Source of the DNA: Thuidium tamariscinum
Taxonomy: Eukaryota; Streptophyta; Bryopsida; Hypnales; Thuidiaceae
Assembly: GCA_947034885.2 (NCBI GenBank)
Contig: OZ019759.1
Span: 9,302,501 to 9,366,500 of the forward strand
Length of the DNA stretch: 64,000 nt
Direction: 5' to 3'
Shown here: piece by piece, positions 2,051-61,303 of the stretch
Layout: each line of letters begins with the position of its first letter
Position numbering within the stretch: position 1 is the stretch's first letter
The notes under the pieces: model-generated
Databases searched by the model: none
Told to the model about the DNA's origin: nothing
The model's input: only the letters and a program-made list of their open reading frames with translations
Made by a program: the position numbers and the translations under genes

Positions 2051-3849
2051 ATAGGGGTTCTTATCCAAAGAACCACAAAGGGTGTTGAAGGTGGATATCA
2101 TCCCCGTTATCTTTCCAAGTACGAATTAATCCGGTTATCAACCCGGGCACATGCCCGATTAACCTCCCGGATATCGCAGACGCGTGTATCTCCGGGTATT
2201 TGCGGGTATCGCAGAGGAGAGGGCCAGTAGGTTTGGCGCGGCGCTCTTTCTCCTCCCCCGCGCCATTTTCTTTGTGTTCTCTGTGTTTATTGTGTTTAGG
2301 GTTGTTTCTTGTGGGGGTTGTCGATGTTGGTGTTGTGTTTTTCAATTGTTGCGCGTTCCGAGGTTTAGGGTGAGACTCAAGATCTAGCGGTACAGGTTTC
2401 TCCTTGGTCGTTAGTGAGAGGAGGAGTGAAGTTGGGGGCTTCGGCAGGTTTCCTTCTTCTGTGCCGGTATGGGTTTTCTTGTTGCGGTTTGCGTTCTCTG
2501 TTGGAAGCTCGAGGTTGCTGAGGTTCGTGGAGCGCCGCGGACCAAGGATCATGGTTTTGTCGCCGTCATTGAGGCTTTTGGATTTATTTGGCGATTGCAT
2601 AGTTGGTAAGCTCCGGTTTCCATTCTGCGGGTTTTCTTGATTGTGAATTGTCGTTTCCCTGTCAATGTGCATGAGACCTCCGATCATGTGAAAGAATTGT
2701 AGTTGTTGCAGTTGTACGAGGTGCTAGGGTTCAAGGTGTCGCTGTAGGAAGATGCCATGTCTGAATTGAATGTCAATTTCTGAACACAATTTCATAGTCC
2801 TCCTTTCATAGTACAATCTGTTTTTGTTTAGGGTTTAAGGGTAGGAACTTCTATGAATGTGTTTCAAATTCTAGAAGGCATCAAAGGAAGGCCACAGTTT
2901 TGTATGCAAAACAGTTTGTGAATGCTGTTTTTTCATTTGAAGATTCTTTCCAGTACAACCCCCGGCAGTGAATTGAATTGCAGCATACAGTTTGTAAGAA
3001 GCAGTTGTTGATGATTTGAATCTGTGTTGCTGTAGGTTTGATCTGCATTGCAAGCCAATTGCAATTTCTACATTGTCGGCATAGAAATACCGGTGAGAGC
3101 GTTTCCAATTTCATTTACATTGAATGAATTCAATTTCAATTTCCAATTTATGGTTTGTCATGCTTTTCTACTGTGGTTCAAGTTTTGGGATCAAGAGAAC
3201 TGAGATTTGTCTACAACAGTGAATGGGGGGCGGGGTTGTCTATTTTCTCTGATGAGTATTGGAATTTTTTTTAGCTGCTGAATCACTTTAAGCACATGAA
3301 CAGTACGAGTGCTATATTGGGTTTAGGATTGAATGTGAGCATTTGTACTGTAGAAAATGCATATGTAGATCTCAATGTTTGCAATTCGCTGAACAGTTTC
3401 TGGCAACATGTTGCTTCCACACTAACGATACCAACTGAATTGTGCATTACGGTTTAGGTCGATGACAGTTTAGGTCGACCCTACTATAATTAGAGGAAAT
3501 TGAGAATCCCAGTTACGAAGTGAACATGTCAATTTAGGTCGACCTGACCTAAACCAACATGTGCAATTTTGAGGTACATGGGAGAAAATAGATGGATTAT
3601 AATGAAAACAGTAGAACTTTATTATGCTAAATTAAACAAAAAAAGATAAATAAAAAATTAGAAACTAAATTACATACATCAGATTAGGTCGATGCGACCT
3701 AAACTGTATACGGTACTCTAACGAGGGGCTGTCCCACAAAAAATTTCGACCCTCGAAGAATGTGAGTTTGAAATTTGTATGGCAACCGTCAGATTAGGTC
3801 AACTCGACCTAATGTGTCATACCATCCGATCTAACAATGTTTCTACAGG
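2050..3849 (+). promoter_or_regulatory. promoter/5' leader region of the GQHS gene
   Basis: Base composition changes abruptly near 2100 to GC-richer DNA with stretches such as CGCGGCGCTC and GTGTTTAGGGTTG, like the leaders at 21.7-22.3 kb and 58.3-59.5 kb. The frames read here on both strands are short and lack family features, so I treat the region as untranslated leader with introns. A good 3' splice site (TTTCTACAG) lies at 3849, immediately before the start codon of the next gene, so the last leader intron ends there. No unambiguous TATA box was seen. Confidence 0.4.
3453..3812. repeat. cluster of AGGTCG palindromes in the leader
   Basis: Four sites of one motif: two half-sites TTTAGGTCGA in tandem at 3453-3482, and full palindromes at 3533-3553, 3684-3702 and 3794-3812. 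Consensus is TTYAGGTCG, a 1-4 base spacer, then CGACCTRAA. The last one lies in the intron whose 3' end is at 3849. The same motif recurs in later introns of this gene and at two other loci, so it is a property of the element and not chance. Confidence 0.85.
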
Positions 3850-4602
3850 ATGGAGGAACAAGTTCCAAAGTTAGAGTCATTCTTTAAAAGAATGAACATC
3901 GATGTTGACGACGACGACGGTGATGACTTCAACAACGAGGGAGAATATTGGGAGCTCACCAATCTAGATGTAGTGGAGTACTGGTCTCTGCTTCTAATTC
4001 CAATGACTCACAAGTACTGCTTCTGCCGCAAGTACAAGGATCATCTTCCCTATCACCCCATCTCGTACGAAGAGAAGATCAAGGAGATTTCCCCTGACAT
4101 AGGGACAATGATCAAGATCCACTGCATGACTGCTCAGATCGGAAAAAAAGATGAAGAGCAGTATCACTTTACACTCGTCATCGACTCCTTGAAGATCCCC
4201 TTCTACGTGAGTCATTTCATTCACAGCTTAGAAAATTCGGTGTACAGTGGTGAAATCCCAGAGCTGGAGAAGAAGGTGGACGTTGGATACTGGAAATCCA
4301 AGAAGGAAGCCCAAGTGACGGGAAAGAATCTCTGCGACAGGTTGAGGCAATTGTTTGTGGACTTCGCGGTACTGAAAGGCAAGCTCAATCTGAAGAAAAC
4401 TCAAATAGCTACCCGATTTGTATCCCACGATCCCCCTAGTCATTTGGAGGGACAGAGTTCTCAAGGTACACCAGGTACACAACAAAGTTGGGGTACCAGA
4501 AGAAGTGCGCTGACAGGGACCCCACCAACAAGAGCCCGGAAGAGTCCCCTTGCTTCAACATCGGCTAAAAAGACTCCAGAAAACGACGAAAGCGAACCTG
4601 CA

Positions 4603-4911
4603 CACTAGAAGAAAACCATGTTGGATTGCCCAAAATTTGCGTTTAATTCCTCCAAAACTGTGTTAGATACAAGACAAAACGTCATATGGTTTTTGTTGAA
4701 AACCATATTGAAAACACAGTGAAAACCAAGAGAAACATAGATATTGTAGAATCCAACATAGATTTTGAGTTTCCCTATGTTGTAACAAAATTCTTTGCAT
4801 TTTCAACATGGTTTTCAACAAAAACCATATGACGTTTTTTGTTGAATCTAACGTAGTTTTGGAGGAATTAAACGCAAATTTTGGGCAATCCAACGTGCTT
4901 TTCTTCTAGTC
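4603..4911. mobile_element. CACTA-type miniature element (MITE) inside an exon
   Basis: The 309-base element begins CACTAGAAGAAAA and ends TTTTCTTCTAGTC; the last base should be G in a perfect CACTA end. The terminal inverted repeats run for about 110 bases each with few mismatches, leaving a short middle. A 3-base duplication GCA flanks it (4600-4602 and 4912-4914), as expected for CACTA transposition. It carries no coding capacity. Element plus one duplication is 312 bases, so the host frame resumes unchanged, but the TAG inside the CACTAG terminus stops translation at 4606-4608. Confidence 0.9.
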
Positions 4912-5607
4912 GCACTTGCAGAATTGAGCTTTGCTTCCGTTGTCACAAACGTCCCCTCCGCGCACGACCCCAAGCGCAATGTTGACTACAAGGAGTCAAC
5001 TGAAGCGTACAAAAACTACTGGGCGACATGTAGTGACGCTTATGTTTTCAACATCGACGAGAAAAAGAAGCTTCCCATTGACAACCTGATGGCTGCACCC
5101 GCTGATGTAAACATTCGAAGTCATGAGCAGAGGCTCGTAGTTGACATGTTTCACTATCTGATGCATATGCCAGATAAGACAGGGAAGCAGACGCTGTGTG
5201 TTATGCCCCAAAACTGCGTTGAGAAGCCGAAGAGAGAGGATTGGGACCAACTGAAGACGCAAAAGTTTTATATTGTGCATGGCCAGCATAGTGTTTCCGC
5301 CATTAAATTGATGGTGGAACAAAATGTAGATGAAGAGATCCTCAAGCACTTTCGAGAGTGGGATTGTTATATTGTATGGTCTAACAGCAATGAAATCCTG
5401 AGGACAATCTCGGCCTATTATAACCGTGTCAATCATTTCGTGGCTTTGAAGCCCTCTTGGTCGACCAACATTCTTGGTGCTAGAACATGCTGGATCAATA
5501 TGGGGAGACCAAGAAATCCAAAGGATGCTGCCCCCGTTGGAACTGCGTTAGTGGCAAGGCAGAATGCTGACAACAAAAAGAACGCACTAAAGTTCAAGGT
5601 ATGTAAT

Positions 5608-5705
5608 TTCAGGTCGACCCGAGCTAATTCGTTTATGATAAAATTCTATGCTCCAGCTCAATTTTGAGAATGACAATTATTCACATTTAGGTCGATGCGG
5701 CCTAA
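5608..5705. repeat. two AGGTCG palindromes in intron 1
   Basis: Sites at 5608-5626 (TTCAGGTCGACCCGAGCTAA) and 5686-5705 (TTTAGGTCGATGCGGCCTAA). The first starts 9 bases after the splice donor GTATGT, the same position as in the second copy of the gene. Confidence 0.85.
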
Positions 5706-7106
5706 TCTGCTCTAACATTACCTCCTACGTTGTTGTTGCTCCAGGAGTTTGTGAAGGCAATGAACATTTGATTCGCCATGCTGGACGTAGTAAAGTCTCA
5801 GAAAGCGTCGCGAGGAAAAGACGCGGAGGAGAAACTCAAGATTATTAATGAGTTGAAAATAATAACGGTACCTGATTGCGTCTACGACTTATGGAGTGAG
5901 GTTATTTCCAGCGCGGCACATGGAAAGCTCATCGACCCTTATACGCTGGTGAAGTTTAAAGACAAATCAGGGTGGAAGTTAGAGAGTGGGAACCTAACAC
6001 ACGAATTTTTCAAGTGGTTAGGGAACCTCTTGTATGATGATCTTGCGAAGCTCGCCCAGCATATCCTCCACATGTATCCAAAGTGGCAGAACCTTCAGTA
6101 CCCCAAGGTGACAGTAAAAATGATTGGTTCAGTTTTGGAAAGCTGCTACACAGCGAAGGATTGGGTGGAGCGACGAAAGAGAAAGTACCTTGTGAAGAGA
6201 GAGCTTCACATACTCGATCCGTCACTGGGCTTGTTGAATGCATTCAACACTTTGAACATCGACAAGTGGAGAGAGTTCAAGGAGAAGCGCTGCATCACCA
6301 GTGCTACCATGAACGTGCTTCTGGAGAAGCCTGGTGAAGATTTTTTCAAAGACGCAAAGCAAACGCGGTCAAAAAACAAGACCGCAGCGGATATTTCTCC
6401 ATACATTGCTCAATTTTTCAAGACATTTCTGGAGCGGCGGAGTAATTTTATGAAGCCATAGACTGTGGCTCATTACATGACGTACGAGATCGATGTCGAC
6501 AAGCACCACCACTGGCCCGCGGGCACGTGGAGAGCGGACACGCTGCCGAACATGGGATTCGGAGTGATCGACTTTCGTTATACTCTTGTGGTGTTGAACA
6601 AGGGCAAATGCACGCCGCTGAAGCCCAATTTCAAGGCGGTGATGGCGTCTTTCCAGGCGATGAAGAAGCCTGCTCTTGAAGACGTTCCCACATGGATGTT
6701 CATATGCGCTGATTTCGTCGAGAACACACAAGTTCTCAGTTTTATTCACCAGAATCCTGTACTGAAAGAGTACAAGATGGACTACGGTGATTACTGGTCG
6801 GCAAAGAACGAAGGGATGGGTGACTACTCATCCAACAACAGCAAGGCTATTGAGAAAGTGTATATAATCTTTCTTCAGGACAAGTCAAGAGTGGATTGGC
6901 AACTACCATACAGAATGTATCGGGCCCCAGATACCGATGTTTTTAATAAGCCAAGACTCTACAACGAAACAATGTATCGGATTCACAACACCAAACTACG
7001 CATGGAATTTTATTTGAATATCCTCAGGCGTTTCGGTCTCAAGTCTAGGAATATTTTATCGTTGTTTGCGGGATCAAAGTTCACCTGCGCTGCAATGGTG
7101 AGTACA

Positions 7107-7183
7107 TTCAGGTCGACTCGACCTGATTAGCATACCTTCTTCTATTGTTCTTGATGCTCCCTATTAAGGTCGACTCGACCTAA
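7107..7183. repeat. two AGGTCG palindromes in intron 2
   Basis: Sites at 7107-7125 (TTCAGGTCGACTCGACCTGA) and 7164-7183 (TTAAGGTCGACTCGACCTAA). The first again begins about 9 bases after the donor GTGAGT. Confidence 0.85.
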
Positions 7184-8411
7184 ATGATTTCCTTTCTTAG
7201 CTAATATACTGGAAAGCAGTAAACATATCGTTTTACTGAAATTTGTATCTGTTTCTACAGATGACGGGGCACAGGGTTCTCACGGTCGGCACTTCTGACG
7301 AGTCTGAATAGTGGACCGAGGTCGTAGAGTTGGGTAAGTCACTCGACAAGGAGGACTTTCTTCAACGTGGGTATTTTGAGGATGAAGAAATTCACCCACG
7401 TAAACCTCTGGAGAGTTCCACTCCTTCAACTTCACGTCGACGACGAGTTTCATCAGACGTGCAGATAACTCCCTCAACGAGGTTTAGGAGGACGGATGTT
7501 GAAGTAGAAGAGTTGTCGGATGAGGGTGGCAATACTGAGGATGAGATCGAGTATCCCGACCCTGAGCCTCTAAATGAAGAGCATTGCACACCAGGGAACC
7601 TCTCCCAGAGTGTGCGGGGCTCCTCTGCGTCTTCTGGGTAGCCAATGGATGTGCAACCGGGGAGCACACCCGTGACGGAGAAGTCGAAAGCGAAGAGGAA
7701 AAGAGACGATGATGATGATGACGACGAAGAGGACTTGAGGACGCAGTTAGCAAAGATGAAGGTGAAGCGGAAGAAAGATATTAATCAGAATCTCGCTCTA
7801 CATGCAGATCAAGCAGAGAAGCTTGATGAAATTAAACAACTGATTTACACTAATCAAGCCGATACTGCAACAACCCTGAACGCCATTGTTAACCATTTGC
7901 AGGGTGTCAGTCCTATCAGCTCGTATCTTCCAGGACCTGGTGGAATTCCCTTACTGACGCAAGGTGGCGGTTTTGGTTCTTTCGGGTCATTCTTGAACTT
8001 CGGACAGGGAATTCCCGGGCAAGGGACTTTGATTGCGGCTCCTCAAGTTCTCATACCAGCACCTGCGGACATTACACTAGCTGTTCCGGTAAGTACAGCT
8101 GCTGCTGCCTCCGTTTCGACTGCTGTGCCCGTGCAAGGAAATTCTCCTACTCCTGATGAGTCGGAGATCGAGAAAATGGAGGTGCCTCCCGCAAGTAGTG
8201 TACTCGTTTCTCCCGCGCCGCCTCCTCATTCAGTGACCAACAATGTTGATGCCGTCCAAATGGAAGTGGAAGAAGACGTCGTGGTTGCAACGCCCGTGGA
8301 AAGCATCATGATGAGCGAAATCCCTACTACAATTGATAATACAACGCCTGTACCGGAGAACTTGACTGCATCTGCAGGTGCTTCCAGTTGAATGTTTGTG
8401 GTTCTTGGCGT

Positions 8412-8431
8412 TTTAGGTCGACCCGACCTAA
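8412..8431. repeat. AGGTCG palindrome just past the stop codon
   Basis: TTTAGGTCGACCCGACCTAA, nearly perfect. A splice acceptor-like TATTACAG follows at 8454-8461, so it may sit in an intron of the 3' untranslated region. Confidence 0.85.
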
Positions 8432-8763
8432 TGTATATCATAGTTTGTATATAATATTACAGGATGGTAGGAGCCTCATTTTTTCAGTTAAGCTGATGTC
8501 CCAAGCGGACGGAACCATGAAAATCATCATTTTGATTTTTGGAAATCAATTTTGTAATTTTCCACTCATTTAATGAAAACTACTATACGGCTTTCTTACG
8601 TTCTATGTTGATTTCTTCTCTATGGCAGATGCTAGTCACTAATCCACCAAGCGCAATAGACTTCTCTAAGTAAAAAAACCAGAAACTTTAGAAACACACG
8701 ATGAAATTTTTTTTTAAAGTATGCTATCATTCAAGTCAGTTAAAAAAATGATCATTTCACTAA

Positions 8764-8902
8764 CCTCAACAACAGAATCCAAGGCAGGAGGGATTGGAAC
8801 CTCCAATTCCATTAGTTCGACGCTAGGATGATCTACTTCAGCACGAGCAATCTCATCGAGAAGAGCAAGATTGTCCTCGCTCGCACATGGATCGGATTCC
8901 AA
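8764..8902 (-). CDS. possible exon of an acidic protein (weak)
   Basis: A short minus-strand frame is rich in acidic and hydrophobic residues (for example LLDEIARAEVDHPSVELME) and ends at a donor-like GTTAGT. It resembles coding sequence more than the alternative frames but matches no family I know and has no clear start. It could be an exon of an antisense gene between the GQHS and FCP1-like genes, or chance. Confidence 0.2.
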
Positions 8903-9064
8903 TACAACAGGCGCAATAACATTCGGAGAGGTTGCTTTTCAATTTGAGACTCAATGCCATAAGAATCACTCATGACATTCAAGGTGCCGTCTCTCTTTGT
9001 TTGATAGCAAGGATCAGACCCTGCATGTCTTCGTGGGGAATCGTCGGAGGTTGTTTCGGTCCCA

Positions 9065-10878
9065 TTGAGTTCCAGGTTAGTAGATAGGTGGCTGCACGTC
9101 GTCCTAGACCTGAATGGGATCCTCTGTGTCACCGAGGATGGAAGGTCCAAGGGGTTTGCAAAGTCTCTTCGAGACTCTAGGCAGCCTCATTCGGCAACCT
9201 CTCCCGCTCTTGTTGGATCCAAATTAGTTTACGTCCGTCCAAACTGTGCAGAGTTTTTGCGGCAATTAACTCTATTCGCCTACGTCTCAGTGTGGAGCTC
9301 CATGAAAAAGTCCACTACTGAGGAAATTGTCTTCTTCCTCTTCAACAACCTTAAATATCCTGATTTCGTGTTTGAGCAAAACTCCTGCACCACACTGAAG
9401 TGCAAAGATAGCTCCGGATACGTTACAGCATTCAAGGAGCCAGGCACATGAAAGGAATTATTTTTGAAAGACCTTAGTCAGCTCTTTACTATAAACCGAG
9501 GGAAGTTCAAGCCCACGAATACGGTCATGGTCGACAATAATCTGGCGAAACACATTCTGAACAAGGCAAAGAATATTGTTCTCCTTGACACGTGGACCAA
9601 CAAGGGCAACGGTCCTAAGGACACGTTTCTCCTGGACATTCTATTGCCTTGGTTTTAGCGCCTCCATTTTGCTCGCGACAATGGTTTAAAATCTTTTAGG
9701 GAGAATAGTTTTGGGAAGATGGGGCGGAAAATGCTCTGTGATGAGAGGAATCGCAAGGAGTATAATAGGCTTATGGACGTCGTGAGACATTCGAGTGCCT
9801 TGAGATAGGGTCCCACTTCACATGCTTCTTTTGCTGTCACTTTAGGTCGAGGCGACCTAAATTGTATATAGGCTTCTGGACTTCCTTTGCCTCAGTATGT
9901 ACGGATTTACTTATGAATAAACATATGAAAAAACACTTTTATTTTGATTTTTTTCCATTCATCGTTACCTCGGCTCGACCTTTCTCCGTTTCCATTCTCT
10001 CTTCGTTATTTGATTTATTCTTGCCTATTAGGTTCAATGGTTGAGTTGCCTTTGTTCAATATGTACGGACTTATTTTTGAAGAAATATATGTGGATATCA
10101 TTTCACTTTGATATATGCTTACTCCACTTACGCTCGGCTTAATCTTTCTTTGTTTGCTTAGTAGTCTAAATGTTTTTTGGAAACATATGAATCTCGATGT
10201 TTGATTTGTAATCTTGTTTATTTTCAGACCCTTCCCAGAAGTGCTCTTGTCGTCCAGAAAGGCTCTCTGCCATGCTCCGCTTCAATCGATTCCTTTCTTG
10301 AATACGGGCAGAATGCAATCTTGAGTATTGGAAACTTCCTCTACTCTGCAGCCACAGCCAATTCGACAATAGACTTTTTAGTAGTGCCCGTAGATGATGG
10401 TGTGGTGGATAGTCCACCAAGTCGGGCGCCTTTGCAGTTGAAGTCGTGCTCTCCTTCGCCTCTTCGATGGAGAGATCCTTTTGCATCGCACATGACAACT
10501 AACACTTTTGAGGAATTGACTGAGAAGAAGTTGACGCAGAGGAAGCTATATGAGCAATTCCAACTCCAAGAATGTAGAGTGCTCCCAACTTCTCCATTGC
10601 CTAGCCAATCAAGAGAGAATAAGATTTGTGTGCGATCCCATGGTGTCGTGCATCCTCGTATGCGAACAACGTCTCCAAGTATTAGGAGGTCAAAATCACA
10701 CAATGGAGTTTCTCAAAGCCGAGTCACTCAAGCAATGCAAGATGAATGGAATCAGAAGTTCATACAATTGCAGAAGCAAGAAGACCTTCACCAATATAAA
10801 AAATTTGATAATGGTTACAGTCGTGGGCCGGAGATTTTGAAGGCGATGGCGACTATTAGGAGTCATTCAGACATATAG
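9065..10878 (+). pseudogene. FCP1/NIF-like HAD phosphatase, broken copy
   Basis: The first block reads WLHVVLDLNGILC at its N-terminus, the HAD/FCP1 catalytic motif DxDG with the second Asp replaced by Asn. It then has the VYVRPN segment, VSVWSSM (motif 2 region) and VMVDNN (conserved Asp loop near the end), finishing LLPWF. FCP1-family enzymes dephosphorylate serines on proteins such as the RNA polymerase II tail; loss of the second Asp makes normal catalysis doubtful. The same frame continues through TGA (9449) and TAG (9656) to TAG at 9806. An intron ending at 10229 (TTTTCAG) leads to a second block, 10230-10878, whose DGVVDSPPSR motif is also present downstream of the other FCP1-like copy at 43.7 kb. 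The block ends in a Gln/Lys-rich helix. The start is uncertain: 9065 is a TTG after a possible acceptor. Confidence 0.7.
9841..9860. repeat. AGGTCG palindrome in the FCP1-like intron
   Basis: TTTAGGTCGAGGCGACCTAA, a near-perfect dyad, located between the two coding blocks of the FCP1-like gene. It ties this gene to the neighbouring GQHS gene. Confidence 0.85.
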
Positions 10879-11315
10879 CAGTTGTGTATATTGTACAGCT
10901 GAATAGTAGTCAAGTATATAAATGCATTGTTCAGGCTTTATATAGTATACATTACGCGACTGAATCACACTCACTACAAACACATAGACATTCTTGACGA
11001 TTTCTATTAATTGGAATGTCACATTTGAAAGAATGTTGGAAATACTGGGGTCACTATAAATACAAGAGTTTTTTTATCTTGTTCATAGTTTTGTTCATTG
11101 CAATATCCTTGATGATATGCTACATTATTGTGGGATTTTTGTTTCAATGTCTTGCTTTTTGGTATATTTGTTGATAGAAAGTTTGCCCCTAAACCTTTCA
11201 ATTCAGTGGAATACTCTCATTTTAATGAATATATTGTTCTATGTAATGACAATCAATTTCTACCTAATTTGAATTGGATGGAACGTGCACATCCACAAAG
11301 GACTCACACATCAAA

Positions 11316-43692: not shown

Positions 43693-43809
43693 TTATCCTC
43701 GAGTCAATGATGCCCCCCAGCATCTTGGACAAGGAGTTCCAACTTTTGACTAGTCACTCCGTCTTTCTGTAGAGTCAATGACCAAGACCTTCCTCGACTC
43801 GAGGATGTC
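43693..43809. repeat. two ATCCTCGA palindromes near the FCP1-like 3' end
   Basis: Sites TTATCCTCGAGTCAATGATG (43693-43712) and TTCCTCGACTCGAGGATGTC (43790-43809). They are of the same family as those at 16.6-17.4 kb. An acceptor-like CTCTACAG on the minus strand lies between them, so the second may be in an intron. Confidence 0.75.
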
Positions 43810-46942: not shown

Positions 46943-47784
46943 AATATTTGGAACATCATATTCATTAATTTGGGAGGTTTAGAACCTCTCAAAATAATAT
47001 TATCTATTTATAGAATAAAAAATTATTACATAGTTGTATTAAATTTCAGCTAAATCAGTGTCTCTTTCATTAGTTAGTAGTTGTAATTTCCATTAAAATG
47101 ATAGTTCGAAGTAGAAGAATAAGAATAACTACGGTCATAATTTGGTGCTTCGTTTAAGAGGTTCAGACTACAATATGAATTTATACTCAATGTATGTTGC
47201 TTCACACCTATTTATATGTGAATTTCTTGATCAGTTAGTCACCCTATTGAGTTAGGGTATATTGCGAGAGGTCGTGCAAGAGACTGATAGTTGTGTGATT
47301 GGAGGTCCGGGTTCGATTCCTGTTGACTACCATCTTGTTAAGCCGTGGGCGCTATCCTGATAATGAGCTAGATTGCAATTGTAGTTTAGAATCCATACAC
47401 CAAATTTTTTGTATTGTTTTAGATCTTTAATAGTTCTATACATTATTCCTTTAAAATCAATAGTACGTAAATGTAAAATGCAATTTTCACAAAGACCAAA
47501 TAAGTAGATCAACAAGAATTATAGAAAAAATAACACAGTAAAATATAGTTGTACTTGTAATAAAAATATGTAGAAACAAACTTGTTTTGTTAAAACAAAA
47601 TCAAGAATCCAAACAATCTATCTAAAAGTAAATTAGGATATGATATCAAACCAACACAATCTACTACAATTTATTGATTTCCATATAGATGTATTTTACT
47701 AACATTACCGAGGACCACCAAAACAATATTCAATACTCAATATTATAAGAACTATAACATATATCTAGAGCTATATCAAATACA
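46943..47784. other. AT-rich spacer with tRNA-like sequence
   Basis: No coding signal. The only structured item is the tRNA-like sequence at 47256-47330. Confidence 0.5.
47256..47330 (+). repeat. tRNA-like sequence, probable SINE head
   Basis: GGTCCGGGTTCGATTCC is a near-consensus pol III B box/T-arm. Upstream, TTGC...GCAA forms a 4-base D-stem around GAGAGGTCGT, close to an A box. The acceptor stem pairs poorly (GGTATAT against GACTACC) and no good anticodon stem forms, so I do not call a functional tRNA. A tRNA-derived SINE or tRNA pseudogene fits best. Confidence 0.4.
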
Positions 47785-50622
47785 TCAAGCATATGAAGCG
47801 AGGCTCTCGTTGATGATCTCAATTTGTGCAGCCGGGATCTTAAGCAAACATTGACGAGTATCTTTTTTGATTTGAGACTTCCATGCCGTCATAAGAGCAT
47901 CTGTTTGTTCCCAAACAGGTGGATCGGTAATATCAACCTTCCATCAAAGACCTCTTTCACTATCCCATCCAGTGTAGAAGTCTTGAACATCTTGACTCCT
48001 TGAGGTTGGACGAAAGTACTGAATAAGAACACGATTTGGTTCCTCAGGATTACAATTTGGATTAGAGAGGGCCCTTGCAATCCAAACAGGGCGACTGTCA
48101 CCTTCTGCGGGACGAACTGCAACAAAATAACCTTCGAAGACATCACGTCCGACCCTGAATGATGGTTCCGGGCGACCTCGCAAAGGTCCAACATAGGCAT
48201 CATCTTCCCCAAACTCTTCACAATCCTCGCCATCTTCTCCAAGTTGATCTTCAAGATTGGCTTGAACACGAGTGGATGGCCAAAATCCGTCTTTGAGAGT
48301 AGGAGAGGCAGTAATTGGTTCTTGCAAAGCAACCATTACATCACGCCAATAGTACACCAAATGCTCGTAACGCCTACGGCACTCTCCAGTTACGTCTACA
48401 TTACATAAATTCTCCCAATACTTCACGAATCTAGCTATGCCTTTTTCAATGTCCTCTACACCTCTCATTGGCTTCGGAGAAATTGGCAATGGTACTCTAC
48501 GGGGCTACAAACTATGTCCTTCAGAATCCTCCTTCCACAACTTAATTCCTCTACCGTCATCTCCTAACCAATCTTCATCAGTGCATAGTAGTTTGTACTT
48601 CATCACAAGAACACCATTTGAATCCAAATAGAACTTCACTTGTTGTGGCTTTGTATGCCCAACAAGCACCTCACTACCATCCAAGAAACAACCTGCTATG
48701 AACCCCTTGAAGTTAGGCACCTCTTCAATTAGATGAGGGATAGCAGGAATACTCTCTACATCCATGAATGACTTCATGAGTGATGGGATAGTTGGAAAAT
48801 TCTCCTTCTTCAAAAGCATGCTCCATCTCCCAAACAATGCATCAATGTCATCATGTGTATGCCCTACGATCATGAAGTTCACATATACTTCACGAAAGAT
48901 CTTGTTTGCCACAAGAAGTGACCAAAAACAGAAAACATATCGATTCTTGTTGTCCCCTGTGGCATTATCCATCTGCACATTCAAAATGGGTGGCAATGGT
49001 ACTCCTGACACAAAGGAGTCTGGTTGTGGAGGTAGAGATGCTACACACATCTCGGACCCTTTCAAGACTATTTGGAACAAAGTAGATGACCCTGATCCTG
49101 CAAATAATTGTCGAGAAGAAGACTTTGGGGGTTCTTCCAAATCCCGCAACAACTTTGCCATTGAACCAATTGTGTAGTTTGAATCGTGAGGGAATATATC
49201 TAATCCATAGTGCGCGTAACGTACATCACCATGACCATGGGCAATCATCCCAGTGACAAAAACAGGCAACTTCATCAAACCATCAGTATCCTTAGACTTG
49301 TGGGAAAATGCTGGGCACGCAGTCTTCGCATGATCCATCTTATCGTGCATGATTGTAAGACACTCATGTGGATAATTATGCGAATGATAACGATTTGCAT
49401 AATAATACTCTCTATGAGCGCGGGCTACTGCCAAATGCTTGTCCAGTTTTTGGGACCACTTCAAAGCACTTACAGATCCAGGAAGAGCTCCCTTCCTAAG
49501 CTCTTGCAATTTGTCACAAGTTCCACAACGAGCAAAATTATCTCTTGGCTTCTTCACCTCGAACTCCGAAAATCTGGTTGCTCTTATCTTACTTAAGTTG
49601 GAAGTTGACACCGCCCTCAATCCAAAAGCAACATTTGTGTCATTTATGCTTGGGAGTTGGTCCTTCCACTGAAAAGTAGCCAGAAGAACCATTGAAACAA
49701 CCTTGTTCCCTGACTTAAGAGTCCTAGTTCGATGAGGCATGTGGTCTGCTTCCTTATCCAGGAGACACTTTAAAGTTGCAGCAGCTTGTTCAGTGTGTTT
49801 TCTTAGCTTCAATAAGCCAAGATTACCATGCTCTCGTGCTTCACGGTCATTTTTCCAATACTTTTGGTATCGATAGAAAGTAGACTCTGGAACGCCTGAA
49901 ATATGCATCCACGCTTGCATGCACACACTTATGCCTTCCACTATCACCATCTTCCTTCCTCGTGAATCATGATGAACTGATCTGTGAACATCAGTCTTCA
50001 AATGTGCTCTAAACTTGAAAGTTGACCTTTGGTACATTCGTTCCCGGAAGATTTTAATTTTCTCCCTTGGAAAAGGTTGCACACAGTTCTTGTTGCAACA
50101 GACCTTACTAGACACTGAATTAATAGAATCCTGCGAGAGCAGATCCTTGGACCGAAGTGTAGTCTCCCGAGGAGGATTCCTGATGACACTTGTGTAAGGC
50201 CGAGCTGATAATGATGAAGGAGGATTCAACAGACTTGCTTGAAGGCGATTGAAGTTATCTCGAGCCTCATGGTCATGGAGACTAGCCCCGTGACAATGGA
50301 CGAGCTCAACTGGCCAGGCAACAAGTGAATAAACTTGCTCACAAGGAATGTGTTCTACAGAATGAGTCTTTGAGATGTGAATAGCAACGTGCGTGTCACC
50401 AAGAGGACCACTAGCTCCCAACACAAGATTTGAATTCACACTGTGGCAAGTCCCTTCTCCAACAAGGATGCCACCACTGCTATAAAGAGTCACCCGCTTT
50501 GTATTCCAGAGACAACGTGGAAGCCCCTCGCACTCGGGGATTCCAACATTCATCCCTTCCAAAGTCTAGAATTCATCTTCAGAGAACTCCATGAGATTGT
50601 CCGATAAAGCACTTGAATCCAT
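47785..50622 (-). pseudogene. DUF7869-like putative DDD transposase, nearly intact
   Basis: One frame of 945 codons plus stop from the ATG at 50622 (just after acceptor AATCAG) to TGA at 47787-47785. It is interrupted only by TAG at 50568, TAG at 48507 and TGA at 47946. Motifs: CCNKNC and a Cys pair (CGTCDKLQEL) that may bind zinc; MHDKMDHAKTACP with Asp427/430; MIAHGHGDVRYAHYGLD; VQMDNATGDNKNRYVF with Asp552; and VGHTHDDIDALFGRW with Asp591/592/594. The core matches the uncharacterised DUF7869 family common in non-seed plants. Three Asp-bearing motifs in this order, the last two about 39 residues apart, look like an RNase-H-fold (DDE/D) recombinase; that is my inference. A C-terminal domain (FRVGRDVFEGYFVAVRPA, YFRPTSRS, YTGWD) follows. 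The nearest full homologue in the window is the decayed copy at 13694-16590. Coding potential is excellent outside the three stops. Confidence 0.8.
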
Positions 50623-50694
50623 AGTACCTGATTATCAATAATCAAATGTCTTAGAAAGGTTCTCAACATTTTGCAAACAATAAAGAAAAGGCAT

Positions 50695-51212
50695 TTTAGG
50701 TCGTAACGACCTGAATTGAATAAATGAATTCACCATCTATTAAAACTACAGGGAACATAGAAGCACAGTTCAAGCCGGTAAGACCTAAAATGTACACTCT
50801 GGATAAAAGAGTAAACTCCTAGGAAATAAAGAATGAGCTAATTTACCATCTACAAATAGTATTATAAGTATTTACTCCAATAAATACAAAATTCTCCATG
50901 AAAAATACACTTAATTTTATGAAACAAAATATCAGTATTTGTTTTTTTCAATACACATTAAAAGGATTTCGATAGACCTCTCACTTTGTCGTTCAAGAGA
51001 GAGAATCATCAATTCTATTTGAAGAATACAGGTAATTTGATCATATAGTCAAGGTGAATGGGTTGTAACATTACTCAATTATATGAACATAACGAGAATG
51101 CATTTCAGGTCGTACCGACCTAAATCTTATAATAAAAGAATGTATACTCTGTTTCACCCAATCAGGACTCAAATATTAAAATAATGTGCCATTTAGGACG
51201 GTATGCCTTGAA
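50695..51212. repeat. four AGGTCG-family palindromes in the leader
   Basis: Sites at 50695-50715 (TTTAGGTCGTAACGACCTGA plus A), 50769-50789 (degenerate), 51104-51124 (TTCAGGTCGTACCGACCTAA plus A) and 51192-51212 (degenerate). The first is about 75 bases upstream of the splice acceptor at the start codon of the minus-strand gene. The spacer differs slightly (TAA/TAC) from the GAC/GAT type at 3-10 kb. Confidence 0.8.
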
Positions 51213-52136
51213 TTGCACAGTCATTAAATAGACTCCAAACACATCCGGATTTTGTGGCGTGAACTTCGGGTATATGTCATCACTCAAAGTGTCCACAGAA
51301 CATAATCAGACCTTCACACCGACACCAAATTGAGCACGATCATGAATTCCTTCAACAAAGACCGACCTTCGAACCGACACCAAGTCGCGCACGATCATGA
51401 ATTCATTCAACAGAGACCGGCCTTCAAATCGACTCTGAACTAGCGACCATCACGAACTCCTTCAACAGAGACAGACCCTTTAACTGACCACGAACTAAGG
51501 ACAATCAGTAACACTTCCAGAAGAGATAAACCTTGAGACCAACTTCAAATCAGAGACGATGATCAAAAACACATTCAACAAACAAAAACAACCAAACACC
51601 CCTGAAAGTAGAGACATCCATACACTCATTCAGTACAGATAGACCTTCGAAGAACCTCTAAAGTAGCGACGAATTCATTTAACAGGTTCAGCGATGCACA
51701 TTAGCAAAAAGTGTAATATATTCGAACAACAATCAACAGCTCAACTTCTGTGTCACAGTCAGGAGTAAAATTAATGAGCGCAGCTCACTCAACAAGAAGA
51801 GAAACCTAAACTAAAGTACAAGAGGTCTGCTGCCCTTTGAAATCAAGATGCCTTCATCATGTATAAGCAAAAGTAGTAAGATCCATACCAAAACAAGCGA
51901 GCACAAGATATTCCCTGCAATGATGCTAACTTCACGAACTCGAACAACCACGATTGATACAGCACGTACTGCAAGCAGAACAGAATGCACAGAGGGTGGG
52001 GGAAAAAACGAAATGAGAGAAAAGACATGGCAGAAACGGGCGCACACTAATCGAGCACTTTCGGGCGGGGGAAAGTTGGCGCCAACAGAAATTGCGGCGT
52101 TTGAATCGTTATCCTTTCGAAAAAGATGCCTCTTCC

Positions 52137-52144
52137 ACTTTATA
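52137..52144 (-). promoter_or_regulatory. TATA box candidate
   Basis: CTATAAAG on the minus strand at the upstream edge of the GC-rich leader; no other candidate is as well placed. Confidence 0.5.
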
Positions 52145-52330
52145 GCGCCATACATTCATGTACATTCCGCAAGTTGACTTTCGAGGTCACCTGCCTCAGA
52201 AGATTCGTCCGCTACTAACAGCACTAATATCCGGAGGTGCTTTATACTATATTTTGGAATTCGGTGTCTGGCGGGGAATCAAGGATGCGCCAAGAATCTC
52301 CCATTGGCGCGGCTGACGTTGCGTCTCCCC

Positions 52331-52985
52331 GCATCCAATCCGTAATGAAGGTAGACCTAATACTAACTACAGACTATTTTTTGGACCGCTTGCAATTGAA
52401 CGGTGTTTGTTCATCATTCTCGCAGTACAAGTTTAATTTATTTGTGTCAGAAAAGATCAAGTTGCCAACTTTTCATGACATTAATAAATTTATGTGCACA
52501 AAATACAGGAGGCCATTAACAATAATCCTAAAGTCTAAAATGGTAATTTGTTATCATAACTTCTATAATAATCCAAATACTAAACATTGAAATTTATTTA
52601 GTGAAAACTAAGGCAAATCTAAAATGTGACTCTCACTCATAATCACCCCAAATTCAACACCGCAAAACGTTCATTGACAATAAGAATTATTCATACAAAA
52701 CCCAATAGACAAACGTTGCACCATTAGAATACGATTATGATTTAGGGTTCCAAAGATTTAGGAAATTGAACTACCGAACTATCTGAGTGCATCTACCAAA
52801 AGCATTTAAGAAAAAAAGCAACTTGAATGACAAACTGAGTCCGAATTCTATGAAGTTAATCCAATCAAAATCAATCGAGTGGATTAAATACTCAGCATCC
52901 AAAACGCACTAAGAAATTTCCAAATAAAAACAATGCAACCAAACATTCAAATTACAAAAGAAAATAACTAAGCAACATTAATTTT
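52331..52985. other. AT-rich spacer before the satellite
   Basis: No gene or repeat recognised; composition grades into the satellite array. Confidence 0.5.
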
Positions 52986-55900
52986 AACTCTGGTCCCACA
53001 ACACCTAGATTTCCAAGTCCATAGGCTATTTAGAAGAGGAAAAAAAACCCTATTTAAATAGATTACTTTTTGAAATCCACCAAAAAAAGCACTTTCAAAT
53101 TTTGAATGGAAATTTGTCATAGAACATGAATGTCCTATGACATTCCAACTTCTCCATATTTTTTTGGGCCATTCTTTACATAGAATTTCCATTGTATAGG
53201 CCATTTAGAAAAAAACCCAAAATTTCGCAATGTAGCCTACTTTTTGAAATCAAACAAAAAATAGACAAGTCCAATTTTGGAATGAAGAATAGTCATAGAA
53301 CATGAAATCAATGTTCTATGACATTCCAACTCCTGCATATTTTTTTTGGCCCCTCTTCACGTCGAATTCCAAATGTATAGGCCATTTAGGAAAAAACCCA
53401 AAATTTCACAGTGTAGCCTATTTTTTGAAATCCCATAAGAACTTGGCAATTTCTAATTTTGGAATGGAAATTTGTCATTGAATATAATTTTTCTATGACA
53501 TTCCAACTTCTCCAAATTTTTTTTGGCTCTATTAGACGTTGAATTTCAATTCTAATGACCATTTAGAAATTAGACCCAAAAATGGTTGGGTAGTGTATTT
53601 ATTGAAATCCTATAAAAACTACATAATTTCAAATTTTGAATTGAAATTTGTCATAGATTGTGAATGTCATATGACATTCCAACTTCTCCATATCTTTCTT
53701 GGCCCCTCTTGACGTGGAATTTCAATTCTATTGGCCAATTTGAAATTAGACCCAAAATTTTGCAGTGTAGCCTATTTTTTGAAATCAAACAAAAAATAGA
53801 CAATTTCTAATTTTTACTTGAAATTCGTCGTAGAATATGAGTGTTCTATGACATTCGAACTACTCAAATTCTTTTTAGCTCTCTTAGTCATTGAATTTCA
53901 ATTCTATTGACCATTTAGAAATTAGACCCAAAAATGGTTGGGTGGTGTATTTTTTGAAATCCTATAAAAACTACATAATTTGAAATTTGAAATGGAAATT
54001 TGTCATAAAACATGCATGTTCTATGACATTCCAACTTCTCCATATTTTTTTTGGCACCTCTTTACGTCGAATTTTAATTGTAGAGGACATTTTGAAATTA
54101 GACCCAAAAATGGCTGGAAGGCGTATTTTTTGAAATCAAACTAAAACTACACAATTTCAAATTTGGAATAGAAATTTGTCATAGAACATGCATGTCCTAT
54201 GACAAAACAACTTCTCCATTTTTTTTTTGGACCCTCTTCACGTGGAATTTCAATTCTATTGGCCAATTAGAAGGATATCCAAAATTTCGCAGTGTAGCCT
54301 ATTTTTTGAAACAAAACAAAAAGTAGACAATTTCTAATTTGGATTGGAAATTTGTCGGAGAACATAAATGTTCTAGGACATTCCAACCTTTCCATATTTT
54401 TTGGGCCCCTCTTCACGTGGTTTTTTTAATTCTCTTGGCCATTTAGGAAAAAAACACAAATTTTCACAATGTAGCCTATTTTTTGGAATCCCACAAAAAC
54501 TAGGCAATTTCAATTTTGGAATGGAAAATTTGTCATAGAACATTCATGTTCTATGACTTGCCAACTTCTCCATTTTCTTTTGTCGCTCTTCATGTTGAAT
54601 TTCAATTCCATAGGCCATTTTGAAATTAGCCCCAAAAATGGCTCGTTGGCGTATTTTTTGTAATCAAACCAAAACCAGAAAATTTCAAATTTGGAATAGA
54701 AATTTTTCATAGAACATAAATGTCCTATGACATTCCAACTCCTGCATATTTTTTTTGGCCCCTCTTCACGTCGAATTCCAAATGTATAGGCCATTTAGGA
54801 AAAAACCCAAAATTTCACAGTGTAGCCTATTTTTTGAAATCCCATAAGAACTTGGCAATTTCTAATTTTGGAATGGAAATTTGTCATTGAATATAATTTT
54901 TCTATGACATTCCAACTTCTCCAAATTTTTTTTGGCTCTATTAGACGTTGAATTTCAATTCTAATGACCATTTAGAAATTAGACCCAAAAATGGTTGGGT
55001 AGTGTATTTATTGAAATCCTATAAAAACTACATAATTTCAAATTTTGAATTGAAATTTGTCATAGATTGTGAATGTCATATGACATTCCAACTTCTCCAT
55101 ATCTTTCTTGGCCCCTCTTGACGTGGAATTTCAATTCTATTGGCCAATTTGAAATTAGACCCAAAATTTTGCAGTGTAGCCTATTTTTTGAAATCAAACA
55201 AAAAATAGACAATTTCTAATTTTTACTTGAAATTCGTCGTAGAATATGAGTGTTCTATGACATTCGAACTACTCAAATTCTTTTTAGCTCTCTTAGTCAT
55301 TGAATTTCAATTCTATTGACCATTTAGAAATTAGACCCAAAAATGGTTGGGTGGTGTATTTTTTGAAATCCTATAAAAACTACATAATTTGAAATTTGAA
55401 ATGGAAATTTGTCATAAAACATGCATGTTCTATGACATTCCAACTTCTCCATATTTTTTTTGGCACCTCTTTACGTCGAATTTTAATTGTAGAGGACATT
55501 TTGAAATTAGACCCAAAAATGGCTGGAAGGCGTATTTTTTGAAATCAAACTAAAACTACACAATTTCAAATTTGGAATAGAAATTTGTCATAGAACATGC
55601 ATGTCCTATGACAAAACAACTTCTCCATTTTTTTTTTGGACCCTCTTCACGTGGAATTTCAATTCTATTGGCCAATTAGAAGGATATCCAAAATTTCGCA
55701 GTGTAGCCTATTTTTTGAAACAAAACAAAAAGTAGACAATTTCTAATTTGGATTGGAAATTTGTCGGAGAACATAAATGTTCTAGGACATTCCAACCTTT
55801 CCATATTTTTTGGGCCCCTCTTCACGTGGTTTTTTTAATTCTCTTGGCCATTTAGGAAAAAAACACAAATTTTCACAATGTAGCCTATTTTTTGGAATCC

Positions 55901-57420
55901 CACAAAAACTAGGCAATTTCAATTTTGGAATGGAAAATTTGTCATAGAACATTCATGTTCTATGACTTGCCAACTTCTCCATTTTCTTTTGTCGCTCTTC
56001 ATGTTGAATTTCAATTCCATAGGCCATTTTGAAATTAGCCCCAAAAATGGCTCGTTGGCGTATTTTTTGTAATCAAACCAAAACCAGAAAATTTCAAATT
56101 TGGAATAGAAATTTTTCATAGAACATAAATGTCCTATGACATTCCAACTTCCCCATTTTTTTTATTGACCCCTCTTTACGTGGAATTTCAATTCTATTGT
56201 TCACTTAGAATAAAACCCAAAATTTAGCACTATAGCCTATTTTTTGAAATTCAACAAGAAGTAGAGAACTTCTAATTTGGAAATGGAATTTGTCATAGAT
56301 TGTGAATGTCGTATGACATTCCAACTTCTCCATATTTTTATTGTCCCCTCTTTACGTCGAATTTTAATTGTATAGGCCATTTTGAAATTAGCCTAAAAAA
56401 TGGTTGGGTGGCGTGTTTCTTGAAATCAAACTAAAACTAAAAAATTTTGAATTTTGAATTGAAATTTGTCATAGATTGTGAATGACATATGACATTCCAA
56501 CTTCTCTATATTTTTCTTGGCCCCCCTTTACGTGGAATTTCAATTCTATTGGCCAATTAGAAGGAAACCCAAAATTTCACAATGTAGCCTATTTTTTGAA
56601 ACAACACAAAAAACAGACAATTCCTAATTTGGAAATGAAATTTGTCATAGAACATGAATGTCATATGATATTCCAACTTCTCCATATTTTTATTGGCCCC
56701 TCTTCACGTGGAATTTCGATTCTATTGGCCAATTAGAAGGAAACCCAAAGTTTCACAGTGTAGCATATTTCTTGAAACAAAACAAAAAATTGACAATTTC
56801 TAATTTGGAATTGGAATTCGTCATAGAATATGAGTGTTGTATGACATTGCAACTTCTCCAATTTCTTTTTGGCTCCCTTAGACGTTAAATTTCAATTCTA
56901 TTGACCATTTAGATATTAGATCCAAAAATGGCTGGGTGGCGGATTTTTTGAATTCAAACAAAAAGTAGACAATTTCAAATTTTGGATTGAAATTTGTCAT
57001 AGATTGTGAATGTCATATGCCATTCCAACTTCTCCATATATTTTTTGGCCACTCTTCACGTGGAATTTCAATTCTATTGGCCGTTTGGAAGGAAACCCAG
57101 ATTTTCGCAGTGTACCCTATTTTTTGGAATCCCACTAAAAGTAGGTAATTTCAATTTTGGAATGGAAATTTGTTGTAGAACATGAATGATTTAGGACATT
57201 ACAACCTCTCCATATTTGTTTTGGCCCCTCTTCACGTCAAATTTCAATTGAATAGGCCATTTAGGAAAAAATCCAAAATTTCGCAGTGTAGCCTACTTTT
57301 TGAAATCAAACGAAAAGTAGACAATTTCAAATTTGAAATGTAAATTTGTCATAGAACATGAATGTCTTTTGACATTCCAACTTCATATTTTTTGTATTCT
57401 ACATTCACATTGATTTACAA
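52986..57420. repeat. satellite array, ~25 monomers of ~176 bases
   Basis: The word CTATGACATTCC and its variants recur at 53132, 53316, 53493, 53669, 53847, 54022, 54198, 54372, 54551, 54726 and on to about 57362. Spacing is 174-179 bases. Each monomer also has CACGTGGAATTTCAATTC, a GTGTAGCCTATTTTTTGAAA segment and a short dyad GTCATAGAACAT...ATGTTCTATGAC. Monomers differ from each other at many positions. All frames in it are satellite artefacts. Monomer length near 176 is in the range typical of centromeric or heterochromatic plant satellites. Confidence 0.95.
53321..56138. repeat. 1,409-base higher-order duplication of eight monomers
   Basis: 53321-54729 and 54730-56138 appear identical at every stretch I compared, including unusual variants (CTCCTGCATATTTTTTTTGG, GTAGAGGACATTTTG). 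Neighbouring single monomers differ much more. This is a recent block duplication within an older array. Confidence 0.93.
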
Positions 57421-58240
57421 TTCTATGGGTGATTTGGGAATTAAACAAATAAATAAATTTTTGTTATGATTTAATCAAAAATGCACCTCTGACTTTAAAT
57501 ATGAAAGAATATTGTTTATTATTTATTGTTGTGTTGTTTACAAGTTTCAATGTAAGATTTTAGGGAGATTATATGGTTATTATTAATAATAATATTATGT
57601 TTTAGTATGAAGTAGGCATAGAATCATTGTTTGTAATTTTTTGACATGTATGCTAGTTAGGACTTGTAAAGTATGAACTTTTTTATAGTGTATTTACGTA
57701 CATTTTGACTCTTTTTTTATTAGTATTCATATTTTTTAATTTGTCTAATTGCTTTGATATCTTTAGCGAGGGGACAATATGTGGTTTTCTAGACTGAGTG
57801 GTCGAACTTATTTATTTGGAGTTTAGTTTCAGTAATTTCTTGCTTTAGTTTTATATATTCTTTGCCTTTTAACAAATGTGGAGGCAAATAGGATGTTTTG
57901 TATGAGCCACTTCGTGAGGACATTTTTTTTTTAATTTCTTATATATTTTGATGCATCATGTGTACCTTCTAATTACCTTTTGATGGAATAATTTCTTGGA
58001 CCCTCTAAAAAAGAATTATTTACTTAATAGCATCAACTTCATCATGAAGAAATTACTTGAACCCCATTGGTTCTCATTGACCAAGGTGCATCTAATTTTT
58101 CTGATAAAGCATTTTTTAAAAGGTCAAGGATTTAGCATAAGATTGTAAGGCTTAAGGATTAAGTGCACAGGGTTAAGTAGAAATTAGAAGTTCTAAGATG
58201 GTGTGTACTTTTTACCGTGTAGAGACTACTGATGGTCTTA
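57421..58240. other. AT-rich spacer after the satellite
   Basis: No gene or repeat recognised. Confidence 0.5.
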
Positions 58241-61200: not shown

Positions 61201-61303
61201 AATAGAAGACAATAGTCCGTGCAAATCAGGTAGGTCCTCCCTGAATTGAGAAGGAGTACGCTCTGGTAGAAAAACTAACAAGTAGAACTTCTTCGATTGT
61301 AGA
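58241..61303 (+). promoter_or_regulatory. promoter/5' leader region of GQHS copy 2
   Basis: GC-richer from about 58250 to 59550 (GAAGGCGCGGAGAGTGTGAG, GGCTGCAGCTCATCC), then AT-rich. This parallels the 2.1-3.8 kb leader of copy 1. Splice acceptor CGATTGTAG ends one base before the ATG at 61304. No open frame here carries a domain. A second minus-strand frame at 61075-61281 overlaps the leader and is not credible. Confidence 0.4.
60860..61245. repeat. degenerate AGGTCG-family palindromes in the leader
   Basis: TTCAGGTCAGCCCTACTTGA (60860-60879) and ATCAGGTAGGTCCTCCCTGA (61224-61243), each a recognisable dyad but with lost bases. The second sits about 60 bases before the acceptor, as in copy 1. 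Confidence 0.55.

Follow-up and report, generated by a model that had tools for sequence, protein, structure and literature searches.

A 21-bp palindrome dispersed through the non-coding DNA of a moss DNA transposon, with lineage-private versions, as the predicted site of an element-encoded reader

In En/Spm transposons, the element-encoded protein TnpA binds subterminal repeats. Sequence-specific self-recognition by transposons has been described for the VANDAL elements of Arabidopsis (PMC5735166, PMC10398659). According to these two reports, a 9-base motif lying in introns, intergenic regions and terminal non-coding regions is bound by VANC21 in vitro and in vivo, VANC6 uses motifs other than those of VANC21 (Hosaka 2017, PMC5735166), and host RNA-directed methylation targets the VANDAL non-coding regions which hold the motifs (Sasaki 2023, PMC10398659). 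Here we describe a palindrome of 21 bp, hereafter the dyad, in a stretch of 64,000 nucleotides of the moss Thuidium tamariscinum (contig OZ019759.1, positions 9,302,501 to 9,366,500; the window), where it recurs in the non-coding parts of two transposon genes, GQHS and DUF7869. On sequence evidence and by analogy, the dyads are predicted to be the sites of an element-encoded dimeric protein which would work like VANC anti-silencing, a reading to which we give a probability of about one half.

The dyad has the consensus TTTAGGTCGA-N-TCGACCTAAA, in which TTAGGTCG and CGACCTAA are invariably 3 bases apart. A set of 322 kb from the same genome, made up of the window and 26 loci chosen for holding or flanking exact sites, contained 151 dyad sites at up to 4 mismatches in 18 positions, 27 of them perfect, whereas 5 replicates of first-order random sequence averaged 0.8 sites per set; the density does not hold for the genome at large, as exact sites had guided the choice of regions. 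At up to 2 mismatches, 130 sites of the set had a spacer of 3 and two a spacer of -2, while the remaining spacers in the range of -1 to 8 gave none; the variable spacer of 1-4 proposed in the earlier note was thus rejected. A base table compiled from 125 distinct sites, which are partly non-independent as some copies are near-identical, was symmetric (CNN-TTTAGGTCGA-S-TCGACCTAAA-NNG) and carried 1.0-2.0 bits per arm position. The central bases are mostly A-N-T, therefore the palindrome reads as 10+1+10, and a weaker preference for C/G was seen at -3/+23.

The genome carrying the window comprises 363 Mb in 19 contigs, the window being on contig C11. Genome-wide, the dyad pattern gave 1585 matches at up to 3 mismatches in 16, as compared to 1083 for the reversed pattern. 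A genome search for dyads, as the earlier note had proposed, linked the perfect sites to the transposon: among the matches listed (all of C1 and C2, and C3 up to 42.44 Mb), 55 of 55 distinct perfect sites were inside element copies. Fifty-four of these were in eight stretches, fetched for these sites, each of which turned out to hold GQHS as well as DUF7869, and the 55th was in another element copy (L037). The non-coding placement also held: none of the 173 sites found at up to 5 mismatches in 20 in all blocks, including locus L036 described below, lay in any coding segment identified from open reading frames (ORFs) and tblastn. When the 173 sites were compared with the tblastn matches themselves, 158 were outside and 15 inside, all of the latter being donor-proximal sites of introns 1 and 2, because the query ORF extended beyond the splice donor. 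An Rfam search at the gathering threshold gave no match, and a tRNA search gave none either. The exact dyad also occurs in four viral contigs, which by a rough estimate is about the chance number for so large a collection. A search of viral contigs with a single GQHS protein and with both alignments found no relative, and a viral origin was dropped.

Shared termini, together with a different 4-bp duplication at each copy, show the dyad-bearing element to be a DNA transposon about 21-24 kb long. Copies A and B (both on C2) and C (on C3) can be aligned over their whole length and terminate at identical bases (AACACTATATTCATTAAAATGAG... and ...CCAAATTAATGAATATGATGTT), with imperfect terminal inverted repeats of 17 bp (AACACTATATTCATTAA / AACATCATATTCATTAA, 2/17 differing). 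The termini of A, B and C, of a further copy H and of element 2, which lies in the window, agree within 0-2 of 22 bases. Perfect 4-bp target-site duplications were found in 5/5 copies with both ends read and were all different, being TAAA, AATG and TTTG for A, B and C, AAGT for H and TTGG for element 2; for copy D one end was seen, and the second did not turn up within the 600 bases that were read. Copy B measures 23,468 bp and element 2 measures 21,128 bp; copies A and C have nested inserts, and copy H, spanning 39 kb, presumably has them too. Duplications of 4 bp are common to several transposon superfamilies, and the termini and duplications alone do not name the superfamily of this element.

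Copy B has an open DUF7869 frame of 951 residues near one end. In the opposite orientation it has a multi-exon GQHS gene, a NIF/FCP1-like phosphatase segment (Pfam NIF, 4.6e-7) and a last ORF, which lies close to the other end. Since copy B carries both genes between its ends, the GQHS and DUF7869 genes of the window are two genes of one element kind, and not two gene sets. The gap of roughly 10 kb between the two leaders is occupied by 176-178-bp tandem arrays and holds no dyad in copies A-C. Such arrays were seen at 53067..57384 of the window (24.5 units of 176 bp between the genes of element 2, with no dyad of this kind found), at 7720-9419 of L018 and at 1015-1666 of L019; the units of element 2 and copy B are about 69% alike, and the 176-bp unit holds a different inverted repeat, TGTCATAGAAC...GTTCTATGACA.

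The nearest named relatives of the window proteins come from two mosses, Physcomitrium patens and Ceratodon purpureus. The named DUF7869 records of these mosses (Pfam PF25273) are 47-74% identical to the window protein and belong to the same family, but are single proteins, whereas here the gene sits in a transposon with ends, a partner gene and sites. The DUF7869 alignment has invariant D, H and N columns, and the protein is a candidate transposase; PDB sequence searches gave nothing useful and no relative of DUF7869. No paper naming DUF7869 turned up in a literature search, and no title on this element was present among the literature matches listed (Sola, moss transposons, moss anti-silencing).

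Good sites of copy B (up to 3/20 off) are distributed on both sides of the array-bearing gap, with two 3' of DUF7869 and six in its leader, six in the GQHS leader, two each in introns 1 and 2, one just past the stop of GQHS stretch e4 and one 3' of the phosphatase segment. The earlier note had placed the dyad in essentially every intron and leader, which is correct for the two GQHS introns and both leaders, and further sites are present 3' of the ORFs. The leader clusters 5' of both ORFs mostly have 4-6 sites (range 2-6 in the copies read). Such clusters of symmetric sites would suit plain self-regulation, in which a dimeric repressor or activator encoded by the element tunes its two genes independently of host silencing. 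However, introns and the 3' sides of the ORFs, which have no need of a promoter operator, carry sites too, and we consider this explanation unlikely.

The distribution also bears on a role in transposition, in which the dyads would bind the transposase as the subterminal repeats of En/Spm bind TnpA. In favour of this, the motif is repeated and specific to an element which is a DNA transposon, and this element resembles En/Spm in having many short repeats within the element and in the predicted involvement of an element-encoded protein. Nevertheless, use in transposition fits poorly, because the good sites (up to 3 mismatches) of copies A-C come no nearer to either end than about 1.2-1.4 kb, lie deep inside the element in introns and leaders, and are not subterminal as in En/Spm. 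Within the terminal few hundred bp only a degenerate match (5/20 off) was found, 93 bp from one end in A, B and C and at a similar place in D and H, which could be a subterminal site or due to chance. Moreover, one terminus of element 2 is identical to that of copy B over 22 bases although its dyads have changed. A role in transposition is, in our judgement, improbable.

The first dyad of intron 1 lies 8-9 nt past the exon in the first 10 copies. In all, a donor-proximal site was present in 18 of 22 copies of intron 1 (8-13 nt past the donor, the donors of the last 12 having been set by eye) and in 9 of 10 copies of intron 2 (9-10 nt; 10 nt in copy G); the position of 8-9 bases after the donor given in the earlier note therefore describes most copies, the other 4 of the 22 being exceptions in intron 1. 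In intron 2 of W2 (element 2), a variant site was seen about 18 nt past the donor and none within 6/20 mismatches of the dyad. When intron 1 of seven copies (B, D, E, F, G, H and W1; copies A, C and W2 were left out) was compared in a dyad-anchored alignment, pairwise identity was 726/872 (83%) in dyad columns as against 746/1787 (42%) in non-dyad columns, with 155/210 (74%) at the splice ends. The dyad is thus kept while the intron sequence around it diverges, as had been claimed. All copies being homologous, the dyads might in principle have no function and merely reflect shared descent of repeated non-coding DNA. We find this hardly credible, since the dyad columns stand far above the rest of the intron, unless the alignment itself caused the contrast, and since the same design is found in lineages whose GQHS proteins are only 34-53% identical to GQHS copy 2 of the window.

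These lineages were approached through GQHS exon 1, which gave at least 89 tblastn matches in the same genome (two places being split in two), many of them partial or with stops. As many as 42 of the 89 matches are on C11, which at 17.5 Mb makes up less than 5% of the genome and is perhaps a sex or repeat-rich chromosome. Intron 1 was read in 12 further GQHS matches, 11 of them distinct, and a 21-bp palindrome with no more than 2 of 9 pairs broken was present in 12/12. It stood 8-13 nt past the donor in 8/12 and was mid-intron only in L043, L044, L046 and L049. In the 11 introns counted (without L041, identical in sequence to L040), palindromes with at most one broken pair numbered 10 as against 0.46 expected, and those with none 5 as against 0.02; at up to two broken pairs the contrast was weaker, 14 as against 4.4.

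The letters of the palindrome change with GQHS identity to copy 2. The half-site is TTTAGGTCGA in the 43-46% group, TTTAGCTCGA in three copies at 48-49% (one copy a base off), TTCAACTCGA at 35% and TTCAAGTTGA at 34%, with an intermediate half-site in L043 (52%), a mixed one (TTTAGGTCA/TTTAGCTCG) in L047 (60%), and TTYAGGTNGR in the element-2 group (73-100%). Written as patterns, the lineage-variant palindromes are TTTAGCTCG-N3-CGAGCTAAA, TTCAACTCG-N3-CGAGTTGAA and TTCAAGTTG-N3-CAACTTGAA. The two halves change together: a left half differed from its own right half by 1.17 of 9 positions and from the right halves of other lineages by 2.53. Re-pairing the halves among seven lineages, with one dyad each, gave an equally good fit in 0.11% of 20,000 shuffles, the test covering only these seven lineages, grouped by how closely they match copy 2 rather than by a tree, with A, C and L041 left out. 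Many stop-free exon-1 copies with near-equal scores were seen in the 34-36% GQHS lineages (C6:21768737, C7:26477568, C11:1833087 and others), and the introns of L040 and L041, both at 35%, are identical; the sequences suggest that these lineages spread recently.

Element 2 illustrates the change within a single copy. It has nine matches to TTYAGG-N9-CCTRAA at up to one mismatch in its 21.1 kb, as compared to 0 to 3 with other gaps from 3 to 15 and to a mean of 0.27 (maximum 2) in 100 random replicates. The sites described earlier as weaker at 60860-62802 are therefore present, but look like this variant and not like random decay. One variant is common to several sites within a single element in element 2, in the further copies and in L036, and such sharing of new letters by several sites points to a common reader. 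L036 (CADCWO010000071.1), filed under a cyanobacterial metagenome-assembled genome (MAG), encodes a DUF7869 protein, 52% identical in the best segment, and has dyads flanking the gene on both sides, five at up to 5/20 off, with C at position 6 in 7/10 halves. It is presumably stray plant DNA contaminating the MAG.

Joint change of both arms between lineages is also what an RNA hairpin would show, if the transcribed palindrome folded beside the splice donor and controlled splicing or export, and the donor-proximal site in 18/22 copies of intron 1 would agree with that. Within the fetched copies, however, 89 distinct words showed 17 two-sided deviations as against 15.0 expected, with pairing restored in 12 of the 17, and broken cells numbered 121 of 890; compensation was thus no more than expected by chance, and a hairpin was rejected as the main constraint there. 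Pairing by itself would not oblige the separate sites of an element to agree in their letters, as they do. Splicing control fits poorly as well, because sites lie in leaders and on 3' sides, past stop codons, and because 4/22 copies of GQHS intron 1 have no donor-proximal site. A function in RNA is accordingly quite improbable.

If the dyads are read by a protein of the element, GQHS is the likelier reader and DUF7869 the other candidate, because GQHS diverges most where the sites differ: between element 2 and copy B, GQHS exons 1-2 are 44-54% identical and DUF7869 81%. Element 2 itself looks chimeric, its DUF7869 half and terminus being near copy B and its GQHS half coming from a distant lineage. 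The GQHS box resembles the DGQHR/ParB signature, as judged by eye, and the moss palindromes share with ParB-parS and DGQHR/DndB systems their occurrence in clusters. GQHS might thus load at the clustered palindromes and spread in the manner of ParB on parS, for partition, clustering or boundary formation. We regard this as very improbable: DGQHR (NCBIfam) gave one weak match in 49 GQHS relatives (E 0.0085; 15.9 bits as against a cut-off of 58.85), spanning residues 220-291 of P0049, no match near the curated cut-off was present in the 49 relatives, and no ParB family of Pfam at E <= 1 was among the matches listed for them.

In the window, element 1 has its GQHS gene (copy 1) on the forward strand, beginning with a first coding stretch at 3850..4605, whose start codon was read from the sequence. 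Exon 1 continues with the GQHS box at 4918..5598 and is followed by exon 2 at 5745..7097 and by stretches e3/e4, broken by stops, at 7261..8391 up to the stop codon; the in-frame stop in exon 2 means that copy 1 is not intact. The dyads of copy 1 stand in the leader at 3533..3553 (TTTAGGTCGACCTGACCTAAA), 3683..3703 and 3793..3813, in intron 1 at 5608..5628 (9 nt past the donor) and 5686..5706, in intron 2 at 7107..7127 (again 9 nt past the donor) and 7164..7184, directly 3' of the e4 stop at 8412..8432 and 3' of the NIF-like segment at 9841..9861. All of these are real, as are the two dyads of the DUF7869 leader given below; of the half-sites reported at 3453-3482, that at 3453 is a lone half-site and 3469 is 5/20 off. 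The FCP1/NIF-like phosphatase segment (9290..9805, forward strand) has two stops in copy 1, the NIF match given above being from copy B, and the last ORF of element 1 is at 10264..10875 on the same strand. One terminus of element 1 is at 11217..11238 (21/22 bases match copies A-C), and its second end was not found within the window. A stretch of about 300 bp at about 4606-4911 interrupts copy 1, and its two ends look by eye like mutual inverted repeats; this is perhaps a small non-autonomous transposon.

Element 2 follows its TTGG duplication at 46948..46951, the partner of which was read in L035 and falls at 68080-68083 by window numbering, and occupies 46952..64000, continuing to 68079. Its DUF7869 gene (47788..50631, reverse strand) is split by a stop, and the leader has dyads at 50695..50715 and 51104..51124 and variant dyads at 50769..50789 and 51192..51212. 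Exon 1 of GQHS copy 2 (61304..62773, forward strand) is preceded in its leader by variant dyads at 60860..60880 (TTCAGGTCAGCCCTACTTGAA), 60969..60989 and 61225..61245, and a further one is in intron 1 at 62782..62802, 8 nt past the donor. Elsewhere in the window, a more diverged DUF7869 gene is on the reverse strand at 13751-16525 (36-53% identical in three stretches; no such dyad was found nearby), and remnants of the phosphatase and last segments are at 43764-44875, also on the reverse strand.

Intron conservation, confinement to the element among the matches listed, exact symmetry and the lineage-wise joint change of the halves support selection on the dyads and their predicted recognition by a protein. 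The proposal of the earlier note that they are binding sites for an element-encoded protein stands in these respects; of the three uses it had offered, namely transposition, self-regulation and splicing control, self-regulation or anti-silencing would fit best, by analogy with VANC. The likeness to VANC lies in an element-specific motif which is spread over the non-coding DNA of the element and, among the matches listed, absent from coding DNA, and which differs between related families, as the moss dyads differ between lineages. In contrast, the moss site is a 21-bp palindrome, dispersed singly and not in tandem repeats, the moss proteins are GQHS and DUF7869, the duplications are of 4 bp, and the host is a moss.

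In the anti-silencing reading, a reader protein made by the transposon would bind the palindrome as a symmetric dimer, and the element would seed its leaders, introns and 3' sides, free of codon constraint, with about 20 sites. Binding would mark a copy as 'self' and sustain the expression of its two genes, most likely by counteracting the silencing which the host directs at those same non-coding stretches, as VANC does on VANDAL elements. Site and reader would change together, each lineage being a private version of one 21-bp design. That the reader is encoded by the element, that it is GQHS, and that its effect would be anti-silencing or activation, we infer.

Several points weigh against this reading. 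In profile searches, neither GQHS nor DUF7869 had a significant match to a DNA-binding domain. The DUF7869 and GQHS halves of element 2 carry different dyad variants, both of which a single reader would have to accept. The dyads are dispersed and none was found in the 176-178-bp arrays of the element, whereas VANC motifs often occur, by expansion, in tandem repeats. The 83% as against 42% contrast is perhaps inflated, the intron alignment having been anchored by the dyads themselves, and an RNA hairpin would also give symmetric change between lineages. The dyads could also be read by a host factor, although the existence of a private site for each lineage speaks against this.

We further propose, tentatively and at less than even odds, that moss transposons have evolved a self/non-self code independently of VANDALs, built of a dimeric element-encoded reader from a new protein family, GQHS, and a lineage-private 21-bp palindrome of fixed architecture (about TTYARSTYGA-N-TCRASYTRAA). 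If so, a lineage would activate its own copies alone, in a genome where related copies and fragments number about 85 or more. The moss DUF7869 proteins of unknown function are now placed in a defined transposon of 21-24 kb. A second system of this kind in a moss, if true, would suggest that self-recognition codes arise repeatedly, and as the moss sites are much longer, palindromic and lineage-private, a matched series of proteins and sites would let the specificity be read off directly.

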